Below are positions 24,997 to 49,324 of a stretch of 58,468 nucleotides of DNA, piece by piece. Each line of letters starts with the position of its first letter. Positions within the stretch are counted from its first letter, which is position 1. The translations under genes and the position numbers were made by a program. This DNA comes from a virus, in IMG/VR virus record IMGVR_UViG_3300020228_000001, positions 1 to 58,468 of that record; one strand, 5' to 3'. The notes beneath the pieces are model-generated. The model saw only the letters and a list, made by a program, of their open reading frames with translations, was not told where the DNA came from and ran no database searches.

Positions 24997-27900
24997 TCAT
25001 ACACGGTCCTCCCTTCGATAGAAGTTTGGTATAGGTGCGGTAATTCCCTTCCAGATGTATCCGATGGTCTTTCTCTCTCTAATTACTCCCTTCAGAGCAC
25101 ACATTTCTTGCATAGCGCCGTTGAATCTGCCCAACCCCAAAGCCCGAAGGCCGGAATTTACGCAAAACTCCTTGTAGGATGAGTAAATCAGTGGGCCGTC
25201 TATGCTGACGCTTTCTTTTACAGTACAAACTTCTTCGATGAATACTTCCACCGAATTGTTCTCTTTGCGATATTCCTCAACCGCGTCCGTGATTTCTTTT
25301 GGTGGATAAAGACCGCCAAGCGTTCTGTAATCCTTGAGCCCATCCAGCGCCCAGTTCAAGATGCCTGGCAGTTCTTTTATCAGCTTTTGGGCGAGGTGTT
25401 TGTCCTGCTCCTCTTTGGCAAAAGTCCGATTAAACGGTATCAAGTGGACTCTAGACCATGCAGCGTTTGTCCTTTCGTAGATGGCGGGCTTGTTATTGGC
25501 CGCCAGAAAGATCTTGCCTTTTGGCTGATAGGTGAAGATCTTGCCGTACAACTCTCGGCAGGTTTGCGGATCGCCGCCAGTCCACGGCTTGATAACTGAC
25601 ATCGAGAACCGGCTGCCCTCTTCCGGCTCTGCTGTGGTAATGATCCGGGCTCCATAGAGCGCGGCCAAATCGTCTCTGACCTTCTCGTTTTTCGATATTA
25701 GGAAGGTCGAGATGTCCGCGTTCCTGGCATACTCGCCGCCCAACTCCCTCATGATCTCCAAGAAAATGCTTTTCCCGTTATCTCCGTCCGATCCGTAAAG
25801 GAAGAAGAAGCATTTCTCGGCCATTGATCCGGTGAGTGAATAGCCTACCACCCTTTGAATATAATCTATGATCGGTTCCTTGTTTTCAAACACCTCTCCT
25901 AAGAATTGCTCCCACCGCTCGCATTTTGCGTTTTCGTTGAATCCATATCCCGCGATCTTCATCAATCTGAATGCCGGGCTGTGATGCAGTAGAGCGAAAT
26001 CATTCAAATCCAAGACACCGTTCTGGAGATTGAGCTTGCAGTCGTCAGCATCGAGCGCCAGAACCGACAAAGAAAACGCCGGATTCTTTGAGGCGAGTGC
26101 TGCCGTGGCCGTATAGCTGTTGTTGTTTCCACATGATGAGGAGAACTTGGCCAGCTCCGCGCGTTTTTTGTCGTCTTCACAGTCCCTGGTTTCTACATAG
26201 AGATTAGAAATAACGTCATCGAGCGCGGTATAAGGCGCGGTTTCGTCTCTCTCCCAGTTCTTGCCTGTCCACTTGATCCAGTCCTTGAACTCTCTGACAT
26301 ACTTCAGATCTCCCCGGTGGAGATCTAACAATCGCTCTACGTTGCCACGATTATTCAGAGTCAGGAATCTTTTCTTGGGCTCCTCCGTTGGGGCTTCCTG
26401 CGGCCTTCCGGTGTTGCCTAACGGCTTGAAGACATCCCGTCCTGGCGCTTCTGGTATCGCCCTGGGGTGGTGCTTCCCAGCGCCAAGAGCACTGTTCAGC
26501 GTGGCTTCTATCTCGCCTTCTCCCAGGCCCGCCCTGTCCGCAGCACGTTCTAATTGCCTTCTGACATCCCACTCGTCGAGGCTTCCACCCGCCACCAGGG
26601 TTGCCAACTTAAACGCACTTGTGTTAAGCTGCGCGTTTCTGTTGCCTTCCTTCGCGAATGTGACCGCCGCTACTTCATCTTCAAAAGCCCGCTGCGCATA
26701 CCTATTATTAATCGCCGTCTTCTTATTATTTTCCAGTTTCTTTAGGTTCTCCTCCAGCCTTTTCTTAGGTCCATATTTTTCCTTTAGAATTTCTACAAAC
26801 CAAGCGGGCGCTTCTGCGAGTTCGCATTCATCCGGTCCTACTTCCCATTCATACTTAGAGCCGTTGTAGTGGGCACTAGGAGGCATAGCCACCTGTCCCT
26901 TTCCTACCTTGACATCGATCCCTGGGAGGATTCCGGCATTGTTTTTAAGTGGAAAACCGAGCTCTGGCCACTTGAAATGATAGTGGCACCCCCGCCCGGT
27001 TTTCACCTTGTGGGTCTTCGGCCATTCTCGATCTCGCAGGCTCTCCTCGCCCGTGGGACCGTCCACATCAACGACCATGAATCCGGTGTCCTGGCCACAC
27101 ATAACGCCCACATTGGACTGCGGCCACATTCCCCACCAGTACTCTATTTTCTTGGTGTCGTTAGAAGCGGTCTCCTGCCACTTTGTGACCCTGGGATGCT
27201 TGCCCCGGCTGTTGCCGTCACAGTCTGGCTTTCCGCACACACACGAGCCGTCCTGCTTGATGTTGTAGAGCGGAATAACCCGCCAGCCACGGGAAGCATA
27301 ATCCAGAGCGGCCAGGCGAAGTTCTCTTTGATGTGTTGAGTTGCCAACGGGCGGCTCGGAATTTCCACCAGGAACTTTTTCCGGTTCCTTTACAATTTGC
27401 AGTTTGCCAATTTCATCGATGTCTTTTTGTGATAAACACCTCTTCAAATCGTCCTTAATGTAATATTCTTTACCCAACGAATTCAACACTCTGATAGCTT
27501 CCCGTCCAAAGCTCGCCCAATCGGTTTCTCGGCTCACCGTCTTGACTGCTTCATTGTGCCAAGGCTGATTATTTTTACTGTTCATTTTGCCGACTTTTAT
27601 TTTATCGGCATATTTAGAGACGATTGGCAACAGTCCAAGGGTTTGTTTTGGATCTACCACGGGTTCGAAGCTTACCCAGGTTGAAATTCCGCGCTCTTTT
27701 GCCAATCTCAGAGCTTCTATTCTATCAGACCAGAGAGACGCGCCCGGTTCCCACTTCTTAGAATCTGCATCATTGTCACATGTCAGAGTGACCCCAAAGA
27801 GGCAATCCTGGCCGTAAAGATCAAAGTCCGTCCGAGCAGTGATACCATTCTTGGTCAACACCTGGAAGGGAATACCTGCGTTCTTGCAGGCCATTAAGCA

Positions 27901-28203
27901 GCGTCTTGATATGTAATCAGGCAATGCCGGATCATAGATATCTCCGACAAAGGTGAACTCCAATCTCTCACCTGGCTTGATGACTTCCTTGAGTCGCTTG
28001 AGGTCAGTTTCCAACCTGGTAAGAACATTATCCTTCAGGACGGGTCCTTTCTGTGTCCCTGGCTTATTGTAGCAATACAGGCAACCATGAGAACAGCTAT
28101 TAGGTCCATCATTCCCTTGTATGCTCTTGACTATGTTACATGCCCAAGCGGAGTATTCCAGAGCCGGTCCTTTTGGCTGGTAGATTACATCAAATCTTGC
28201 CAT
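24997..28203 (-). CDS. Radical SAM–primase-polymerase–SF3 helicase fusion (replicase)
   Basis: 1068 residues from the ATG at 28203 (GGAG nine bases upstream). Domain 1 (about 1-260): radical-SAM/SplB-like, with C37-SHG-C41-LY-C44 for the 4Fe-4S cluster and a TIM-barrel-like continuation (FTFVGDIYDP, VSFEPVVDP). Domain 2 (about 295-480): AEP primase-polymerase with C321/C323/C328, GKHP, catalytic VVDVD (D379, D381) and GRGCHYHF (H407/H409). Domain 3 (about 615-1060): D5_N plus SF3 helicase with Walker A GSDGDNGKS (804-812), AARIITTAEP-like B region and NNKPAI sensor. One uninterrupted ORF. It probably primes and unwinds viral DNA; the radical-SAM part may repair or modify DNA. Overlaps the TcmP gene by 14 bp. 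Confidence 0.85.
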   Translation of the reverse strand: MARFDVIYQPKGPALEYSAWACNIVKSIQGNDGPNSCSHGCLYCYNKPGTQKGPVLKDNVLTRLETDLKRLKEVIKPGERLEFTFVGDIYDPALPDYISRRCLMACKNAGIPFQVLTKNGITARTDFDLYGQDCLFGVTLTCDNDADSKKWEPGASLWSDRIEALRLAKERGISTWVSFEPVVDPKQTLGLLPIVSKYADKIKVGKMNSKNNQPWHNEAVKTVSRETDWASFGREAIRVLNSLGKEYYIKDDLKRCLSQKDIDEIGKLQIVKEPEKVPGGNSEPPVGNSTHQRELRLAALDYASRGWRVIPLYNIKQDGSCVCGKPDCDGNSRGKHPRVTKWQETASNDTKKIEYWWGMWPQSNVGVMCGQDTGFMVVDVDGPTGEESLRDREWPKTHKVKTGRGCHYHFKWPELGFPLKNNAGILPGIDVKVGKGQVAMPPSAHYNGSKYEWEVGPDECELAEAPAWFVEILKEKYGPKKRLEENLKKLENNKKTAINNRYAQRAFEDEVAAVTFAKEGNRNAQLNTSAFKLATLVAGGSLDEWDVRRQLERAADRAGLGEGEIEATLNSALGAGKHHPRAIPEAPGRDVFKPLGNTGRPQEAPTEEPKKRFLTLNNRGNVERLLDLHRGDLKYVREFKDWIKWTGKNWERDETAPYTALDDVISNLYVETRDCEDDKKRAELAKFSSSCGNNNSYTATAALASKNPAFSLSVLALDADDCKLNLQNGVLDLNDFALLHHSPAFRLMKIAGYGFNENAKCERWEQFLGEVFENKEPIIDYIQRVVGYSLTGSMAEKCFFFLYGSDGDNGKSIFLEIMRELGGEYARNADISTFLISKNEKVRDDLAALYGARIITTAEPEEGSRFSMSVIKPWTGGDPQTCRELYGKIFTYQPKGKIFLAANNKPAIYERTNAAWSRVHLIPFNRTFAKEEQDKHLAQKLIKELPGILNWALDGLKDYRTLGGLYPPKEITDAVEEYRKENNSVEVFIEEVCTVKESVSIDGPLIYSSYKEFCVNSGLRALGLGRFNGAMQEMCALKGVIRERKTIGYIWKGITAPIPNFYRREDRV

Positions 28204-29065
28204 TGCCAAAGTCTCCTAGCTCTTTGATCGTGTGTGACACCCGATTCAGTATCGCGGCTCCCTTAGACGAATCGATTTTATAGAATCCTTGAGATTCCCA
28301 CGACGGGTAATCTGTCCAATTGATTCCTAATAAGAACGTCCACTGGGAAGGATCGGGATCTACAATGTCTCTTATGATCCATTGCTTCTTGTTTATGGAT
28401 TTTAGCTGAATCTTCAGATTCGGATATTTCCCTACAAGTTCGGGTCTTCCGGTCTTTGATCCAAATGCATCCAATCCGTTTCTGATCCGCTTGTAATTTG
28501 TTCCAGAAATTCTTATCAAGATATCCACGAATCGGAAATCTGAGTATTGGCTTATGCTTCTCAGCAAATCAAAACTTGGCAGCCCGTTTGGATCATGATA
28601 GATTAGGCCGTATCTCTTCCCGGTTTTCTGTATTATACCAGGCAAGATTTCACTATGGTTTCCGTTCCATAGCTCAACCAAATCAACGAACTCTGGATAG
28701 TCTTCCCATACACGTTCTCCTAGCTTGGTAAGACTGTCTGCATTGGCTTCGATGAAATGTATCTTTTGACCAAAATCATACTTCTTAGATTCTTCTAAAT
28801 ACAATAGCGGAGAACCTATACAATTAACTTCTTGGTTCCACCCGCTACCGGCGTTGATATCTGCGTATAATATGTCTCTTTGTGCTATTTCACACATCGA
28901 AGACGAATATTCTCCATTTTCGGCCTTGGTTTTGATTCGATTGATGATACTAAGCCATTGGCCGAGCACCTTGGATAGCCCGTATTGTTTCTCTTCGGTG
29001 TGTTTTCCTTGTCCCTGTGGTGACGAAGGAAGGCTATTTATATCGCCAGCTATCTTTGTACTCAT
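28190..29065 (-). CDS. tcmP: TcmP-family (three-Cys-motif partner) protein
   Basis: 291 residues with the family layout: KVLGQWLSIINRIKT near the N-terminus, ILYADINAGSGWN (about 68-80, a Rossmann-like D-x-x-A-G-x-G), IHFIEANADSLTKL, YGLIYHDPNGLPSFD (D-P-N-G motif), and C-terminal WTFLLGINWTDYPSW. TcmP genes are known as neighbours of radical-SAM-like three-Cys-motif genes, and here the partner is the radical-SAM domain at the start of the replicase. It looks methyltransferase-like by the D-x-x-x-G-x-G and D-P-N-G pattern, but function is unknown. Confidence 0.7.
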   Translation of the reverse strand: MSTKIAGDINSLPSSPQGQGKHTEEKQYGLSKVLGQWLSIINRIKTKAENGEYSSSMCEIAQRDILYADINAGSGWNQEVNCIGSPLLYLEESKKYDFGQKIHFIEANADSLTKLGERVWEDYPEFVDLVELWNGNHSEILPGIIQKTGKRYGLIYHDPNGLPSFDLLRSISQYSDFRFVDILIRISGTNYKRIRNGLDAFGSKTGRPELVGKYPNLKIQLKSINKKQWIIRDIVDPDPSQWTFLLGINWTDYPSWESQGFYKIDSSKGAAILNRVSHTIKELGDFGNGKI

Positions 29066-42484: not shown

Positions 42485-42772
42485 TCAGATCCCCGTGTAT
42501 TCCGGCCAGCCGTATTTTTTCAGGTTAGCATTGTTTTGCGCTACAGTCTCCGCAAAATCGATATGAGGGAAAGCCTCATAATAGCCGTTGGGCAGCTCCG
42601 CCCTGGCGTTGAGCTTGGTGGAAAACTTGCCGTCTTTTGTGGCCGGATTGTAGAGGAGCGTGATAGATCGATCCGCCTTCAGCCTGCGGTAATTGATGGT
42701 GCGGTCTTTCGCCTCGGCTGACAGCATCGCTTCAATGTACCTCTCTTCTGAGAGCAGTGCTGTGGTGATCAT
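42485..42772 (-). CDS. Small baseplate-region protein (95 aa)
   Basis: Helical/beta mix (ERYIEAMLSAEAKDRTINYR, then LLYNPATKDGKFSTKL). Coupled by ATGA-type overlap to the hub gene. By position a baseplate component; no family recognised. Confidence 0.5.
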   Translation of the reverse strand: MITTALLSEERYIEAMLSAEAKDRTINYRRLKADRSITLLYNPATKDGKFSTKLNARAELPNGYYEAFPHIDFAETVAQNNANLKKYGWPEYTGI

Positions 42773-43998
42773 ACGAGGAAAACTCCCGGATACTTCTGCA
42801 CCACAGAATCATCCTGATCTATGGCATTCCTGTAGTTGGAGTAGAAATTCATGATATCCTGGTCGCCTGATGGCTTGTTAACGCCCAGGAAGTTGGTAGT
42901 CACATCAAGCGAGCTGACGAACCCGCCCTCCGCCGAGATATCGACTACCCGGCGCGTTACCAGGCCCATTACGGCGCCCATCTCGGCCTCTTCTACGCCA
43001 TCGCACTTGACGGGGGGCATCTGTCCGTTCCATGGCCGATAAGCTACCTTGCTGAGCAGGCCGGGGGCTTTGCCAACTACCTTGACCGTTGGCACGTCTT
43101 TGTATTGGCGATACCACTCCAGGAGCTTGTCTGCGACTTCCTGGCATTTCGCCTGGTCTGCGTTAGGCAGCACGACGGGCGGAGCTTTGAGCAGGCCGTA
43201 AGACTGGATCTCCCAATCATTGTCGGGCTCTGCGAAGGCATGAATCAGGTTGTGGGTCTTGCCCTCCCACAGATCCTCGGGTGCACCCCCATAGACATCG
43301 ACGTGATTGCAGTAGCCCACCATATTGGTGGCGTTGCTGCCTCTCAGGATTGAGCCGGTCAGGTTGGAGAAGCCGCGCAGGTTCGTAGCCGGGCAGAACC
43401 AGAACTCATCGTTTTCATCAAAGAAATAGATGGACTCCGCCCAGCAGGAAACGGTGTATAGGGCCGTGTCGAAGTCTATTCCCTTGTCAAGCGTCGGGTT
43501 GACATCATCTGTGGTGTTCTTGGATGGCATGATGTGCCGGACGCCAGTATAGCTGAAATCGTCTAGCAGATCGTTGACAATCGTGGTTATGGGCGTCCCT
43601 GTTGCCCAGATCCTGGGGTTGATCCTGGCCGTCATCCCACCCTCTGAGCAAGACCCCTCGATCTTTAGGAAAAGCTCGTCGCACTCACATTTTTGAATTT
43701 CGCCACTGCACACGTTGATGGTTTTGGTTGATGTCGAATCGCACCCCAATTTGCTGACGCGGACCTGTAAAGATACTCGCTTTTTTGGAGCTGTCTTGAA
43801 ATTGCCCAATTCTTCCTCGGTGATCTCCTCAATACTTTTTGGTGCAAAGCTCCCAAAGAATTGCCCGCTTGGATTGCACAAAACAATATCATACTTGCCA
43901 GGATCTTTGCTGCTATTGCCCGTCTGTTCCATGTGGCAAGTGAGGAAATATCGAGACACATCAGTGCCATCTAGTATTAATATTGGAGTAATATGCAT
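42769..43998 (-). CDS. Baseplate hub protein (gpD/gp27-like)
   Basis: 409 residues. N-terminal beta domain (PILILDGTDVSRYFLTCHME), a long central domain with Cys/Trp clusters and DTALYTVSCWAESIYFFDEN, and a C-terminal beta barrel (VVDISAEGGFVSSLDVTTNF). Layout and position right before the spike match phage late-control gpD/hub proteins. A GGAG sits eight bases before the ATG at 43998. Confidence 0.65.
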   Translation of the reverse strand: MHITPILILDGTDVSRYFLTCHMEQTGNSSKDPGKYDIVLCNPSGQFFGSFAPKSIEEITEEELGNFKTAPKKRVSLQVRVSKLGCDSTSTKTINVCSGEIQKCECDELFLKIEGSCSEGGMTARINPRIWATGTPITTIVNDLLDDFSYTGVRHIMPSKNTTDDVNPTLDKGIDFDTALYTVSCWAESIYFFDENDEFWFCPATNLRGFSNLTGSILRGSNATNMVGYCNHVDVYGGAPEDLWEGKTHNLIHAFAEPDNDWEIQSYGLLKAPPVVLPNADQAKCQEVADKLLEWYRQYKDVPTVKVVGKAPGLLSKVAYRPWNGQMPPVKCDGVEEAEMGAVMGLVTRRVVDISAEGGFVSSLDVTTNFLGVNKPSGDQDIMNFYSNYRNAIDQDDSVVQKYPGVFLV

Positions 43999-44011
43999 AA
44001 TAGCTCCTTGC

Positions 44012-44040
44012 TTGTGAAAAAATAAGAAAAAAATTAAAAT
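44012..44040 (-). terminator. T-rich terminator of the array transcript
   Basis: On the minus strand this is ATTTTAATTTTTTTCTTATT followed by more T residues, directly after the pentanucleotide array. T-rich tracts without a stem are the typical archaeal terminator. The next GGAG and ATG belong to the hub gene. Confidence 0.6.
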
Positions 44041-44053
44041 TGATTATTTGTCC

Positions 44054-44247
44054 ATACCACACTTTACAGGACCAAACCAGACATCACATCGCCGCACTTC
44101 ATCGCACCTTGCCTGACAATACTTCACCCCACATTACCAAACCATATCGTAGATTCCGCTCTCTTTCGGGAGCGGGATAACCATACTTTACCTTGCTTCA
44201 CCAGACTTTGCCTGACCAGACCGCGCCTCACCGAACCTCACCGGACC
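44054..44247 (-). ncRNA. Pentanucleotide-periodic array RNA (14 + 18 units around a hairpin)
   Basis: Transcribed (minus) strand. The first block, 44247 to 44178, is 14 consecutive 5-nt units of the form (G/A)G(T/C)NN, e.g. GGTCC GGTGA GGTTC. A hairpin follows. The second block, 44143 to 44054, is 18 units mostly of NG(T/C)NN, e.g. GGTTT GGTAA TGTGG, with one unit (GATGA) off at position 2. Units are not identical: G at position 2 and T/C at position 3 stay constant while positions 4-5 vary. A period of five is incompatible with simple codon repetition, and the region has stops. It begins within two bases of the stop codon of the nuclease gene and ends in a T-rich terminator. Confidence 0.75.
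44154..44177 (-). ncRNA. Hairpin with GAAA tetraloop between the two array blocks
   Basis: Minus strand TCCCGCTCCCGAAAGAGAGC then GGAA: stem CCGCTC/GAGCGG, one C·A mismatch, then C-G closing a GAAA loop. The 5-nt phase shifts by one base across it, so it separates two independent blocks. Confidence 0.65.
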
Positions 44248-44249
44248 GC

Positions 44250-44546
44250 TCACTTGAGCAGGATTTCGGTCAGTCTTGTCGAAAGCCTTTCGGGATCGTT
44301 GATCAGTTCATGTGATAGCCGGTAGACTTTCCAACCTTCCAATTTCAGGCATTTGGTCCTAAACCAATCTCTTTTTCTGGATTTGCTTGAATCATGACAA
44401 GGACCGTCCGCTTCAAGGACAATGTTCGGACTTAGTACAAAGTCCAACACAAAGCCGCTTGTTGTCGGATATTGTTCAACGAATTCAATTCCTTTGGATT
44501 TTAGCAAATCGAAAACGATCTGCTCTAAGTCGGTTCGCTCGTACAA
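44250..44546 (-). CDS. Vsr/DUF559-like endonuclease
   Basis: 98 residues. GFVLDFVLSPNIVLEADGPC-H (31-51) then DWFRTKCLKLEGWKVYRLSH is the conserved pattern of the Vsr/DUF559 branch of the PD-(D/E)XK fold: D35, E45-x-D47-G and H51, with the G-W-x-V-x-R strand. Start overlaps the RAMP-like gene by 22 bp, so they are translated together. It likely cleaves nucleic acid, guided or helped by the partner protein; substrate unknown. Confidence 0.7.
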   Translation of the reverse strand: MYERTDLEQIVFDLLKSKGIEFVEQYPTTSGFVLDFVLSPNIVLEADGPCHDSSKSRKRDWFRTKCLKLEGWKVYRLSHELINDPERLSTRLTEILLK

Positions 44547-45127
44547 GGCGAAACCTCTTCGATCCTACTAACGGTGAACTGCCCGAAGAGCGGCCTGAAA
44601 TCACCGATACCGCCGCGCTTGCCCGCATTTTCGAGGATGCTCTGAATAATCTCTGGGCCCTCGTTTGCCGGATTCAGGAAGACGGGATCAACCACCCGGA
44701 TTCTGAAGATGCAAGACCACTTGTCGAACCTTGGCCGGTTCGCTATTACTCGCGCCTTTCCGATTACTACCGGACGGCTGTCTATTGTCCATTTCTCATA
44801 GATTAGCTTTGGATCATCTGGTTCGATTTCCAAGCCGGAATATACCAACTTCTTGAAAGTGGCTTTGCCTTTGCCACCCACCTTCTTGTCTGCTGCGCCC
44901 GTTCTGATTGTGTCCAGTAGCACCAGACTCGGCAGAACGATTTCGCCCCTTTCGTTCTTGTAAAGTCCTGATTCTGCCTGAATGTCTGAAGGCGGATGAG
45001 ATACGCCCTTCTGCCTCCATTCTTCGGAGACACGCATCGATTCTACGGGATTGTGCATCAGTAGTGGCTTTTTCCCAGTTATCTCGATCTCAAACACTTT
45101 TTCGATAGGCTCTAGTTCTATCTTCAC
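44525..45127 (-). CDS. RAMP/Cas7-reminiscent protein (200 aa)
   Basis: Start GTG at 45127 with GGTGAG three bases before; the frame is open 14 codons above but runs into the TATA box. N-terminal FEIEITGKKPLLMHN (12-26) is the first strand and P-L-x-M-H-N motif of a viral conserved family. The middle has IVLPSLVLLDTIRTGAADK and RPRFDKWSCIFRIRV. The C-terminal Gly-rich loop GKRGGIGDFRPLFGQF (169-184) recalls RAMP G-loops. Together with the nuclease and the array this suggests an RNA-binding filament protein. Fold assignment is inference. Confidence 0.5.
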   Translation of the reverse strand: MKIELEPIEKVFEIEITGKKPLLMHNPVESMRVSEEWRQKGVSHPPSDIQAESGLYKNERGEIVLPSLVLLDTIRTGAADKKVGGKGKATFKKLVYSGLEIEPDDPKLIYEKWTIDSRPVVIGKARVIANRPRFDKWSCIFRIRVVDPVFLNPANEGPEIIQSILENAGKRGGIGDFRPLFGQFTVSRIEEVSPCTSEPT

Positions 45128-45154
45128 AAACTCACCGAAAGCTAATACTACGCA

Positions 45155-45166
45155 CCAGTATATAAG
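45155..45166 (-). promoter_or_regulatory. Cassette promoter (TATA) with TGCGT operator
   Basis: Minus strand CTTATATACTGG followed by TGCGTAGTATTAGC. The TATA is about 30 bp before the GTG at 45127. It closely matches the early promoter at 34.2 kb (TTATATACT, TGCGT-x-GTA, TTAGC), including the operator half-site. Confidence 0.65.
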
Positions 45167-45200
45167 CATACTGATCTAATAGCATCATTGAACGGTTAGC

Positions 45201-45209
45201 TATTTAAAC
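45201..45209 (+). promoter_or_regulatory. TATA box for the divergent RHH gene
   Basis: TATTTAAAC centred about 25 bp before the ATG at 45230, spacing of a leaderless archaeal transcript. The two cassette promoters are back to back. Confidence 0.6.
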
Positions 45210-45229
45210 TGAGGTGCTAAGTAGGACTT

Positions 45230-45385
45230 ATGGCGCGAACCACGTTAACTCTTTCCGACCCAATAATGCACACGCTGCGATCCCATGCCGCTAAGAGTAA
45301 GAACAGCTCCAAGGCGCAAAGCGAAGTTGTTGAGGACGCTTTGAAGGAATATTTCGAGAAGTACAAGATCACAATCGAGAGCTGA
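45230..45385 (+). CDS. RHH regulator (51 aa) of the array cassette
   Basis: MARTTLTLSDPIMHTLRSHA then SKAQSEVVEDALKEYFEKYK: strand TTLTLSD, helix, turn, helix of ribbon-helix-helix repressors. It is the only plus-strand gene here and diverges from the RAMP-like/nuclease/array operon; its stop lies one base before the end of the minus gene at 45387. Likely autoregulator and repressor of the cassette. Confidence 0.65.
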   Translation: MARTTLTLSDPIMHTLRSHAAKSKNSSKAQSEVVEDALKEYFEKYKITIES

Positions 45386-45386
45386 T

Positions 45387-45860
45387 CTAATCTCCAGAAT
45401 TCGCTTCCAGCAAACTTATTTCTACGCTGTGATACCAGTCCTTAGCGCCCTTGGTCTGCACAATCTCCTTTTTCTGGACGTATGTGCAGAGCCCTTCTGG
45501 GAAGAGTGCAGAGTAGAATTTCTTAGGCCCGGCCAGCAGCCCCTTGATAGACTTCAGGTTATCGCTTATGTCTCCATCCGTCCCCTTCAAGCTGTTATAT
45601 TTCACCAGGATGCTCCACAGGCCGTCTGGGATGGTGCATTGCGTGAGCGGCTTCTGGCCCACAGTCTTGTGGATGACTATCTCGAACTCCTGGCTGTACC
45701 GGATCTCCAGCGGATTGGGCTGCGAGATGTCTGGATCGTTCATATCCCGGACCCCCAGCTCGATGCCGTGAATCTTGACATGGAAAGCGGAATCGACAAG
45801 CGAGATAGTGGCGGCCATCTTCTCGCTGCCGAGGCTTCGTAGGATATCTGAAACCGACAT
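45387..45860 (-). CDS. Tail/baseplate component (157 aa)
   Basis: Beta-rich (VDSAFHVKIHGIELGVRDMN, then FEIVIHKTVGQKPLTQCTIP) with a helical end. Located between tape measure and baseplate hub, where tail-tip/LysM-type proteins are often found. GGAG seven bases before the ATG. Family not recognised. Confidence 0.55.
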   Translation of the reverse strand: MSVSDILRSLGSEKMAATISLVDSAFHVKIHGIELGVRDMNDPDISQPNPLEIRYSQEFEIVIHKTVGQKPLTQCTIPDGLWSILVKYNSLKGTDGDISDNLKSIKGLLAGPKKFYSALFPEGLCTYVQKKEIVQTKGAKDWYHSVEISLLEANSGD

Positions 45861-46338: not shown

Positions 46339-48812
46339 AGATAACCAATCCCGCGCGTGCTCCCATTTTCCATTTTGTTTCTCAGGGCAAAGAGCAATTT
46401 ATCAGCACCCTCGTTTCCGATTCTGGAAATAATCTGGTCAATGTCTGCGGTTTTTTCGACCTTTTCAATGACGACTGTCAGGGATATGGGCGCATGAATT
46501 GTCTGCCCGCCGCCTGGACCAGGCGCGCCAGAAAACATCCTATTGATCTTTCCCAAGGTGGTCTCTCCTCCGACAACCACATCTGCTGGATTGACTTGCT
46601 CTCCTTGGTGCCCGATTATAGCACCGGAGCCGATGATGGATCCGCCCTCTGCCATACCATATAATCCACCACCTGGCATCCACCAGGGCCGCCATGTGGT
46701 TTGCGCTGCTATGTACTCGCCCTTATCTGCCTTAACAGATTCATATTTCTTGGCGGTATTGTCCACATATGCGCTCCCTGCCTCGTTGACCGTGGCAGCA
46801 ACTGCCTTTATCGAGAGCTGCGTGATCAAAGCATTGATCGCCCTCGTGAGTTCTGTGACGCCCGGAAGCCCATCGATAAAGCTCTTGGGCGCATTGTCGT
46901 AAGCTTCTTTGGCCCTTAGCAACGAGTCCGGCACGTCCTCCTTGCGTTGGTTTCCCCCGGTGTACCACCCAGCAGGTGAGTCTGGGCGGCTCTCTTTCCA
47001 CGTCAGGCCTGCTGCCTTTTCGGCCTTCTTCAGATCGGCTTCTTTTTCGCGTTTCGTGATGCCGAGGCCGTCACGGAGCCAGGCGAGGCCGCCTTTTATG
47101 GTATCAAGCAGCCAGGTGAAGAAATCCACCATCTTCTGCCAGATCACGACACCGTAATTGATGAGCTTATTCAGGATATTGCTGTTGTTCCACAGCTTCC
47201 TGAGCATATCGAAGATGAAGGCAATCATCTTGAAGAGCGGCGAATTGGCAACGATCCCCTCCAAAGCCACCTTGAGCACGCCGCCCACGCCACCGGACTT
47301 GTATGCCTTGCCGAGTGTGCCCAGCAGGTCCTCGATCGCCTTCTTTCCGTCTGCAATCGCAGCAAAAACGCCTTTTCCGATGCTCGACTCCGAGAACATC
47401 TTCCAGGCTTTCGAAACTAGCCCAAACCTTTTCTCAAGCACGTAGAGTACTGCAATCAGGCCCACTACGGCCATGATAGCAATTCCCAGCGGATTGGCAC
47501 TCATCGCCGCGTTGAGAATCCACTGAGCAGCCGCCATGAGCTTGGTAACTATGCCTGCTTTCGATATCAGGCCGATAACCGTCATGAGGCCAGGTATGAG
47601 CGAGCCGACCATGGAGACCATCACGAGCCCTGCAGATGCAGCCCCGAGCAGCACCGCCCCCCATCCCATGGCCTTACCGAGCCCTGGGATCTTGCCTATG
47701 ATGTCAGAGAGCTTGATGAAGCCGCCCAGGACGCTGTTGAGCGCAGGTAGCACAGCATCTCCCATAGCTGCCGTTGTGGCGGTAAGCCGCTTGCTAAGGA
47801 CCTCATCCGGCCTGGCGGCAACTGCGCCGGCGAGCTGCTTATCATCCGGTGCCTCGGTGCCGAGCCTTGCCAACCTGGCTGTTGCCGAGGTGGTTGAGAA
47901 TCCGAGGCCAAAGATATCATCAAACTTGGCTGCGGAATCTCCTGAGAGCTGGGGCGCAGAGATCTCTGAGGCGAGCTGCTCTGCGGAAGCGATGCCTTTT
48001 TTCTGGAGCATCTCCTGGTTGGCAAAGAAGTACTTCTCTATATCCTCTGTTGCCTTCTGAGCGGCTTTCTGGCCCATGCCCTTGTTCTTGCTGAGCACTG
48101 TCTGGAAGGTGCCCATCCGGGAGTCTCGGCCCGCGGACCAGTCGTCTCCCTGGGCAGACTCTATCCACTTCTCGGCTCCGGCCTTGTCGGGCAGCTTGCG
48201 GGCCATTAGCCTGCTGTCTAGGGTGGACTTGATGTAATTCTGAGAATGCTTCGATGATAGGGCCGCTGCTGCCGCCATTCCGACCATAGCTGCCGCTGCG
48301 ACGGTAAGGGCGGTGCGGTACTGGACCAGATTGGCAGAGGCGTTCTGCAGCCACCCCGTAAAGCCGGTCCCACTGCCGGCCAGGAAGCCGGACAGTGAGG
48401 ACTTGAGAGAGGCTACGCCCAGGTGCATGGCGCCGGATGTGCCCCAGAAAGCTGCCAGAGTCTTTTGACGCTGGAACTCTGCGGACACCCTGCCCAGCGA
48501 GGATACCAGGCCCGGCCCGATCGCCCGGCCAGCGTTCGCCACGGCTCCGAGGGCCTGCTGGTACTGAGCGAGCGGTGCGACTGCTTTTGATGTCAGGGCT
48601 CCGCCTAGTGCGGACAGATCCTTCATGGCCCCGGCATGAGCGGCGCTGGCGGCTACGGACGCTCTGCGGGCCTGCTCGAAACCGGATGAATCGATCCCTA
48701 GCTTTATCTTGGAATTATTTAGAAGAGCGTCCCTTTGTTTGCGGATCTCTACGAGGCGGTTTCCTATGCCATCTACGACATCGAGCTTGATTGTGACCTG
48801 TCTTTCCGTCAT
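46329..48812 (-). CDS. Tape measure protein
   Basis: 827 residues. N-terminal MTERQVTIKLDVVDGIGNRL, long Ala-rich helices (QARRASVAASAAHAGAMKDL), central hydrophobic segments (GMAAAAALSS; WGAVLLGAASAGLVMVSMVG) and Trp-rich loops are typical. Encoded directly after the tail chaperones and before the baseplate. Its length sets tail length; by the usual ~0.15 nm per residue the tail would be about 120 nm. Confidence 0.8.
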   Translation of the reverse strand: MTERQVTIKLDVVDGIGNRLVEIRKQRDALLNNSKIKLGIDSSGFEQARRASVAASAAHAGAMKDLSALGGALTSKAVAPLAQYQQALGAVANAGRAIGPGLVSSLGRVSAEFQRQKTLAAFWGTSGAMHLGVASLKSSLSGFLAGSGTGFTGWLQNASANLVQYRTALTVAAAAMVGMAAAAALSSKHSQNYIKSTLDSRLMARKLPDKAGAEKWIESAQGDDWSAGRDSRMGTFQTVLSKNKGMGQKAAQKATEDIEKYFFANQEMLQKKGIASAEQLASEISAPQLSGDSAAKFDDIFGLGFSTTSATARLARLGTEAPDDKQLAGAVAARPDEVLSKRLTATTAAMGDAVLPALNSVLGGFIKLSDIIGKIPGLGKAMGWGAVLLGAASAGLVMVSMVGSLIPGLMTVIGLISKAGIVTKLMAAAQWILNAAMSANPLGIAIMAVVGLIAVLYVLEKRFGLVSKAWKMFSESSIGKGVFAAIADGKKAIEDLLGTLGKAYKSGGVGGVLKVALEGIVANSPLFKMIAFIFDMLRKLWNNSNILNKLINYGVVIWQKMVDFFTWLLDTIKGGLAWLRDGLGITKREKEADLKKAEKAAGLTWKESRPDSPAGWYTGGNQRKEDVPDSLLRAKEAYDNAPKSFIDGLPGVTELTRAINALITQLSIKAVAATVNEAGSAYVDNTAKKYESVKADKGEYIAAQTTWRPWWMPGGGLYGMAEGGSIIGSGAIIGHQGEQVNPADVVVGGETTLGKINRMFSGAPGPGGGQTIHAPISLTVVIEKVEKTADIDQIISRIGNEGADKLLFALRNKMENGSTRGIGYLRG

Positions 48813-49324
48813 TTAACCACCGGAATTATCCACTGATGGACGTTAAGCCTTCTACCATCCTCACTTTCTGTCTTCCCACATATCAGGCAGGTGCGGTCAA
48901 AAAATTCCCGAACCCTCTCCCTAAACTCGTGATTGAATTTTGGACAATATGGTTCAAAGCTTGCCCCGCCCCACCAACATGGGCTTTGCTCTCCAGAATG
49001 TGCAATGGAGTTCTTCAGTTTTGCTTCGGGTGTGTGGTGTTTTCCATATCTAATTGAAAGTGGACCAGTCTTTCCGTACTTGGCATTTTTCTCTCCTCGA
49101 TTCGCCGCAGAAATCTTGGCCCGCGTTTCGGGTGATAAGTGTTTCCCCCAATTGACATGTTTTTCACCAGAGTTGCTGGCAGATAGTTTAGCACGTGTTT
49201 CTTCTGTGTGATGCCTCCCAAACATCGGATGTGCTGCCCCAGACGCGCACCCCAACCCCAATTTCTTCCGTGTTGACGAGAGTTTTGCTTTCGATTCCGC
49301 ACTCATATGCTGCCCCTTTCTCAT
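48809..49324 (-). pseudogene. Truncated NUMOD3-HNH homing endonuclease remnant
   Basis: 171 residues. Four NUMOD3-like repeats (MFGRHHTEETRAKLSASNSG, NWGKHLSPETRAKISAANRG, IRYGKHHTPEAKLKNSIAHS) precede the beginning of an HNH domain (FDRTCLICGKTESEDGRRLN-VHQW). It stops after VH: the second His is Gln, and the central Asn, second CxxC and final His are missing. The frame then runs into the TMP start. A decayed homing endonuclease, probably inactive. Start at 49324 or 49306. Confidence 0.7.

Follow-up and report, generated by a model that had tools for sequence, protein, structure and literature searches.

VIPR, described in a bioRxiv preprint of April-June 2026 (PMC13142463), is the closest known relative of the viral locus analysed here. 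According to the preprint, Vipr is an ancestral RAMP protein with an RRM core, a G-loop and a thumb that binds vrRNAs built of GGY/NN repeats, and target DNA is recognised by the NN pairs with one base skipped (PMC13142463). Each vrRNA comprises 9-16 YNNGG units followed by a structured, invariable 3' tail, and the targets lie mostly in competing elements (PMC13142463). Repression has been shown for type II VIPR (SUSP1, P. fulva), whose vrRNAs have been sequenced, and the nuclease-bearing types III and V are presented as host-defence types residing in defence islands (PMC13142463). VIPR was tested mainly in E. coli; it is viewed as a relative of CRISPR with a gapped code and has been proposed as its ancestor (PMC13142463).

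The window, that is, the whole 58,468-nucleotide stretch of viral DNA analysed here, contains matches to major head protein, portal, protease, tail sheath, baseplate and tape-measure genes, and by gene content it belongs to a tailed virus with a contractile tail. Two of its tail proteins have the Methanosarcinales virus vir525 as their sole homologue among 50,697 phage records, and positions 1-25,000 of the window have no near DNA match among the phage records. The host is likely a methanogenic archaeon, judging from the vir525 relative, TATA-like boxes and termination at T-runs. Elsewhere in the window, a long minus-strand open reading frame (24997-28209) combines Radical SAM and PrimPol-D5 primase/helicase regions, an unusual fusion if its start is correct, and an apparently truncated homing-endonuclease-like frame with three NUMOD3 motifs lies beside the tape-measure gene (48809-49324, minus strand).

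The cassette occupies positions 43999-45386, between two tail genes (42769-43998 and 45387-45860). It is a clean and exact insert, since the homologues of these two genes abut, with a gap of 0-12 nt, in all six related viruses compared, each of which is devoid of the cassette. Neither a lag-5 array in these siblings nor a vipr gene in the three sibling records searched was found. The sequence-only reading had bounded the cassette at 44012-45385; it placed every part correctly (RHH gene, RAMP-like gene, nuclease and two arrays), and the relatives with abutting flanks extend the insert to its full length. On the minus strand, from 45127 to ~44014, the cassette encodes a 200-aa protein, a 98-aa nuclease, a 14-unit array, a hairpin, an 18-19-unit array and a T-rich stretch. 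A 51-aa ribbon-helix-helix protein (45230-45385, plus strand; Pfam RHH_1, 3.7e-5) runs opposite to this vipr operon and is probably its regulator. The divergent intergenic region (45128-45229) carries TATA-like boxes on both strands, read from the sequence as CTTATATA on the vipr side and TATTTAAA on the RHH side, and their spacing suggests putative archaeal promoters; sigma-70 promoter and terminator scans were uninformative. The T-rich stretch at the 3' end of the second array (44014-44050, minus strand), in which folding found no stable structure, is a probable terminator; beyond it lies the next gene's leader.

The vipr gene (44525-45127, minus strand; phrog_4652, PHROG 4.7e-21) encodes a RAMP-like protein of 200 residues from a GTG codon, or of 214 residues from an alternative upstream ATG at 45169. 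By sequence, this protein is a Vipr: it matches SUSP1 Vipr (PDB 36pp) at 3.9e-9 with a single sequence (phmmer) and at 1e-59 by profile, and membership of the cassette in VIPR is near certain. The locus had been called uncharacterised in the sequence-only reading, which has been overtaken, as this kind of system, known for a matter of months, is already published as VIPR (PMC13142463) and the SUSP1 protein is deposited in the PDB. The guess of a RAMP/Cas7-like fold fared better: an AlphaFold model of the window protein (pLDDT 90.8) found Csm3/Cas7-family RAMP subunits as its best solved structures with Foldseek (E 7.5e-7, TM ~0.5). Scans with Pfam and PADLOC models gave no match to Vipr. Relatives detected by tblastn lie in Felixounavirus-type, Pseudomonas, Gordonia and Mycobacterium phages and in rhizobial plasmids, a single-protein scan of IMG/VR found none, and the first Vipr alignment yielded no conserved stretch usable for scanning. 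In a tree, the window Vipr falls in a deep clade with other Viprs that have nuclease partners.

The partner in this locus, vap (44250-44546, minus strand, TTG start), encodes a 98-aa DUF559/MTES_1575 Vsr-like PD-(D/E)XK nuclease (Pfam ~1e-9), which by homology is a predicted DNA-acting accessory. Such a nuclease could be dispensable, act on RNA or serve another role, and the cassette could then block transcription only, as type II does. This reading, to which we accord a modest chance, is consistent with the repression reported for type II (PMC13142463) and with the rarity of DUF559 partners, which were found only in the window and, among the other loci compared, at one, where DUF559 adjoins vipr in a Thermoplasmata archaeon. 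However, vap overlaps vipr by 22 nt and sits between vipr and the arrays, it retains the D...E-x-D residues (LDFVLSPNIVLEAD), and members of the same deep clade also have nuclease-like partners, of the HNH type in L070 and L081 and of a PD-(D/E)XK appearance, without a Pfam match, in L025 and L027. Exclusion of other viruses by cutting is in our assessment the most likely use of the cassette.

The arrays stand out by their periodicity. Identity at lag 5 reaches 0.46 over positions 44054-44247, with further peaks at 10, 15 and 20 and a background of ~0.25; no other stretch of the 58 kb scores higher at lag 5, and its best 90 bases score 0.51, whereas 60 simulations of the entire window with a first-order Markov model never exceeded 0.47. 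A GGY detector run over the entire window returned two arrays and no others. Their minus-strand unit has the form NN-G/A/T-G-Y, and both the second G and the pyrimidine are present in 14/14 units of the first array and in 18/19 of the second, while the first G of GGY is a G in 22 of the 33 units. The first array, vrRNA-A (44180-44249, minus strand), comprises 14 NNGGY units directly after the nuclease stop codon, with NN pairs GC CC GA TC GA GC CT CA AA CT GA AA AA AT. The second, vrRNA-B (44051-44145, minus strand), comprises 18-19 NNRGY units with NN pairs AT TT AA GG GA AT CA AA GC GA GC GA GA CT TT CC AA GT AT. The 14 and 18 five-nucleotide units counted from the stop codon in the sequence-only reading are thus reproduced as 14 and 18-19. 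TATGG ends both arrays, and a hairpin (44146-44179, minus strand; -14.5 kcal/mol, z -2.8) follows vrRNA-A as its candidate 3' tail, with no such structure 3' of vrRNA-B. A search against Rfam gave no family match.

Pentamer arrays of this kind accompany vipr homologues well beyond the window. All of the first 13 loci, from phage and plasmid relatives, have same-strand NNGG(T/C) arrays adjoining the vipr homologue, and when 80 loci from bacterial and archaeal genomes were added, the detector found adjacent arrays in all but 4 of the 93. The statement in the sequence-only reading that similar proteins lie next to pentamer arrays in unrelated phages therefore holds, for phages and for bacteria. 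A repetitive look, and nothing further, would favour the arrays being a functionless low-complexity or coding by-product. We give this idea practically no credence: it is contradicted by the same-strand arrays beside nearly all homologues, by the vrRNAs sequenced in published relatives (PMC13142463) and by the decoded target of vrRNA-B described below.

Several homologous loci have unusual array arrangements. In three actinophage loci (L004 3570-3800, L005 1650-3160 and L007 2700-4400), the arrays are separated by tRNA-like minihelices with an acceptor-like stem and a T-arm bearing GGTTCGANTCC; most of them fold in this way, only moderately beyond shuffles. These elements suggest vrRNA processing by host RNase P/Z, and the main text of the VIPR preprint does not mention tRNA (PMC13142463). 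A Twister-P5 ribozyme lies upstream of a four-array locus of Omnitrophota (L094 186-240), and hammerhead-interspersed arrays have been reported (PMC13142463). A Desulfobulbaceae contig has seven arrays, with overlapping neighbours, around one vipr (L034 2565-4377). Solitary NNGGY arrays occur ~2 kb from vipr in L075 (5874-5943) and L092 (1170-1264), on the opposite strand in the latter.

We decoded the arrays with the published VIPR rule, in which NN pairs are read and 1 nt is skipped between them. Decoded in this manner, vrRNA-B is a run of codons in which no stop is possible, [IM][FL][NK]G[DE][IM][HQ][NK]A[DE]A[DE][DE]L[FL]P[NK]V[IM]. It matches 30/38 bases at a single in-frame site in L015, L016, L103, L104 and L107, and 29/38 in L017, with the next best site at no more than 22 in each of these six sibling contigs and with skips of 0, 2 or 3 reaching 20-22 only. 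The skipped bases fall on the wobble positions of the target gene. Over 18 units, the gene beside the cassette site in the five sibling contigs matches the guide at 30/36 bases, compared with 27/36 in the virus itself and at most 26 in 300 shuffles of unit order. An exact 10-unit pattern (20 fixed bases) retrieved five contigs only from IMG/VR, all at the target tail gene; three of the five were new and have a perfect 12-unit run. Longer exact patterns had no hit among viral and genome contigs, which is explained by differences at the ends of the alleles observed. The target match is strongly supported, and it lends support to the 1-nt skip of the code in this system. It also bears out the idea that the array is the readable RNA code of an RNA-guided system, with one amendment to the proposed five-nucleotide step: a unit is not read in all five of its bases, but the NN pairs with DNA and one target base is passed over per unit (PMC13142463). 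As the best target is imperfect (30/36), the true target virus is absent from the collections searched.

The target gene is the tail gene that abuts the insert. A search of the whole window placed the best 1-skip site of vrRNA-B in this gene (27/38, next best 22), and the site corresponding to the siblings' target lies at 43658-43713 (minus strand; 27 guide bases match), ~285-341 bp from the insertion edge; we estimate the chance of a target within ~300 bp of the insert edge at ~1% if targets were spread evenly over the 58-kb genome. The products of the relatives' genes are 53-87% identical to that of the window. Synteny with vir525, in which the tape measure is followed by a small protein, the target gene and then baseplate genes, points to a probable baseplate-hub gene (42769-43998). 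That the window's own allele scores above all 300 shuffles, and that vipr and the tail gene are neighbours, would also fit a guide acting on the virus's own gene, for late-gene timing or addiction-like self-regulation. We regard this as improbable, since the cassette-less relatives match better (29-30), the core of 10-12 units is unbroken in five of them and interrupted in the own allele at two units (four bases), and the targets of VIPR lie mostly in competing elements (PMC13142463).

For vrRNA-A, exact patterns of 12 or 9 units gave no match in viral contigs, and 8-unit seeds hit 60 and 4 contigs with a best overall agreement of 21/26, about the chance level for such seeding. We also compared 168 different arrays with their own local flanks: with a skip of 1, 8 of them gave a partial match at p<=0.01, and with skips of 0, 2 or 3 none did. 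The skip rule is independently supported by this enrichment for skip 1 only. Guides thus appear often to resemble the neighbouring genes of their carrier, as would be the case if they were aimed at sibling alleles. With wider flanks, six systems chosen for their partial self-matches still had several such local matches above shuffles. The same enrichment, together with a target within the gene directly beside the insert, empty sites in the siblings and a mismatched own allele, could reflect RNA-guided homing, in which the guide leads the nuclease to the cassette-less allele and the cassette is then copied over by repair from the carrier, at the expense of sibling markers, mismatches protecting the own allele. 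We consider this quite improbable, as the geometry fits one of the two guides only and the same pattern is expected if guides are simply aimed at sibling alleles. The locus nevertheless raises a testable question, namely whether VIPR can drive homing.

Our preferred reading, which we hold to be likely, is that this VIPR cassette lets its carrier exclude sibling viruses. Vipr, as a RAMP/Cas7-like protein, would assemble on the two vrRNAs, with the GGY positions anchoring the protein and the NN pairs reading DNA, one base being skipped per unit. vrRNA-B would be directed at the neighbouring tail gene, the probable baseplate-hub gene, of siblings without the cassette. The DUF559/Vsr-like nuclease probably cuts the DNA recognised by Vipr, and the carrier would thereby exclude its siblings. 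The own allele, although it too matches the guide above chance, would be partly protected by its mismatches, and the operon is probably under the control of the divergently encoded RHH protein.

Compared with Class 1 CRISPR systems, the cassette shares with Cas7/Csm3 a RAMP fold and a protein on a periodic guide RNA, but differs in its 5-nt rather than 6-nt periodicity, its gapped code and its lack of a CRISPR array; its five-base units are not CRISPR repeats, and the neighbours scanned included no further cas-like protein. It resembles free-standing phage homing endonucleases in having a nuclease gene inserted beside the recognition region, with empty alleles in the relatives and an altered own allele, except that recognition here would be by RNA and that homing is a proposal of this work. 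Type II VIPR (SUSP1, P. fulva) agrees with the window in the sequence and fold of Vipr, in NNGGY arrays that share the strand of vipr, in a viral location and in the presence of an accessory gene; its target, too, lies in a coding gene and is read with a 1-nt skip that falls on wobble positions. However, the Vap of type II is a DNA-binding protein whereas that of the window is a Vsr-like nuclease, and the host of the window is probably archaeal. The window further departs from published VIPR in the 18-19 units of vrRNA-B (versus 9-16), in a looser first G of GGY (22/33), in two vrRNAs without a common tail and in a target gene that lies beside the cassette site in sibling viruses. Relative to the main text of the preprint, a DUF559/Vsr-like nuclease as Vap in a virus and the match of vrRNA-B in cassette-less siblings are new, and the locus, picked out from sequence alone, puts the 1-nt-skip rule to an independent test in nature. 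With types III and V the window shares a predicted nuclease as Vap and a place among nuclease-partnered Viprs, but those types are described in host defence islands whereas this cassette is virus-borne and has its match in sibling-virus sequence. Such a nuclease-carrying VIPR on a viral genome, probably that of an archaeal virus, that appears to be aimed at the carrier's siblings qualifies the link between nucleases and host defence as drawn in the preprint (PMC13142463).
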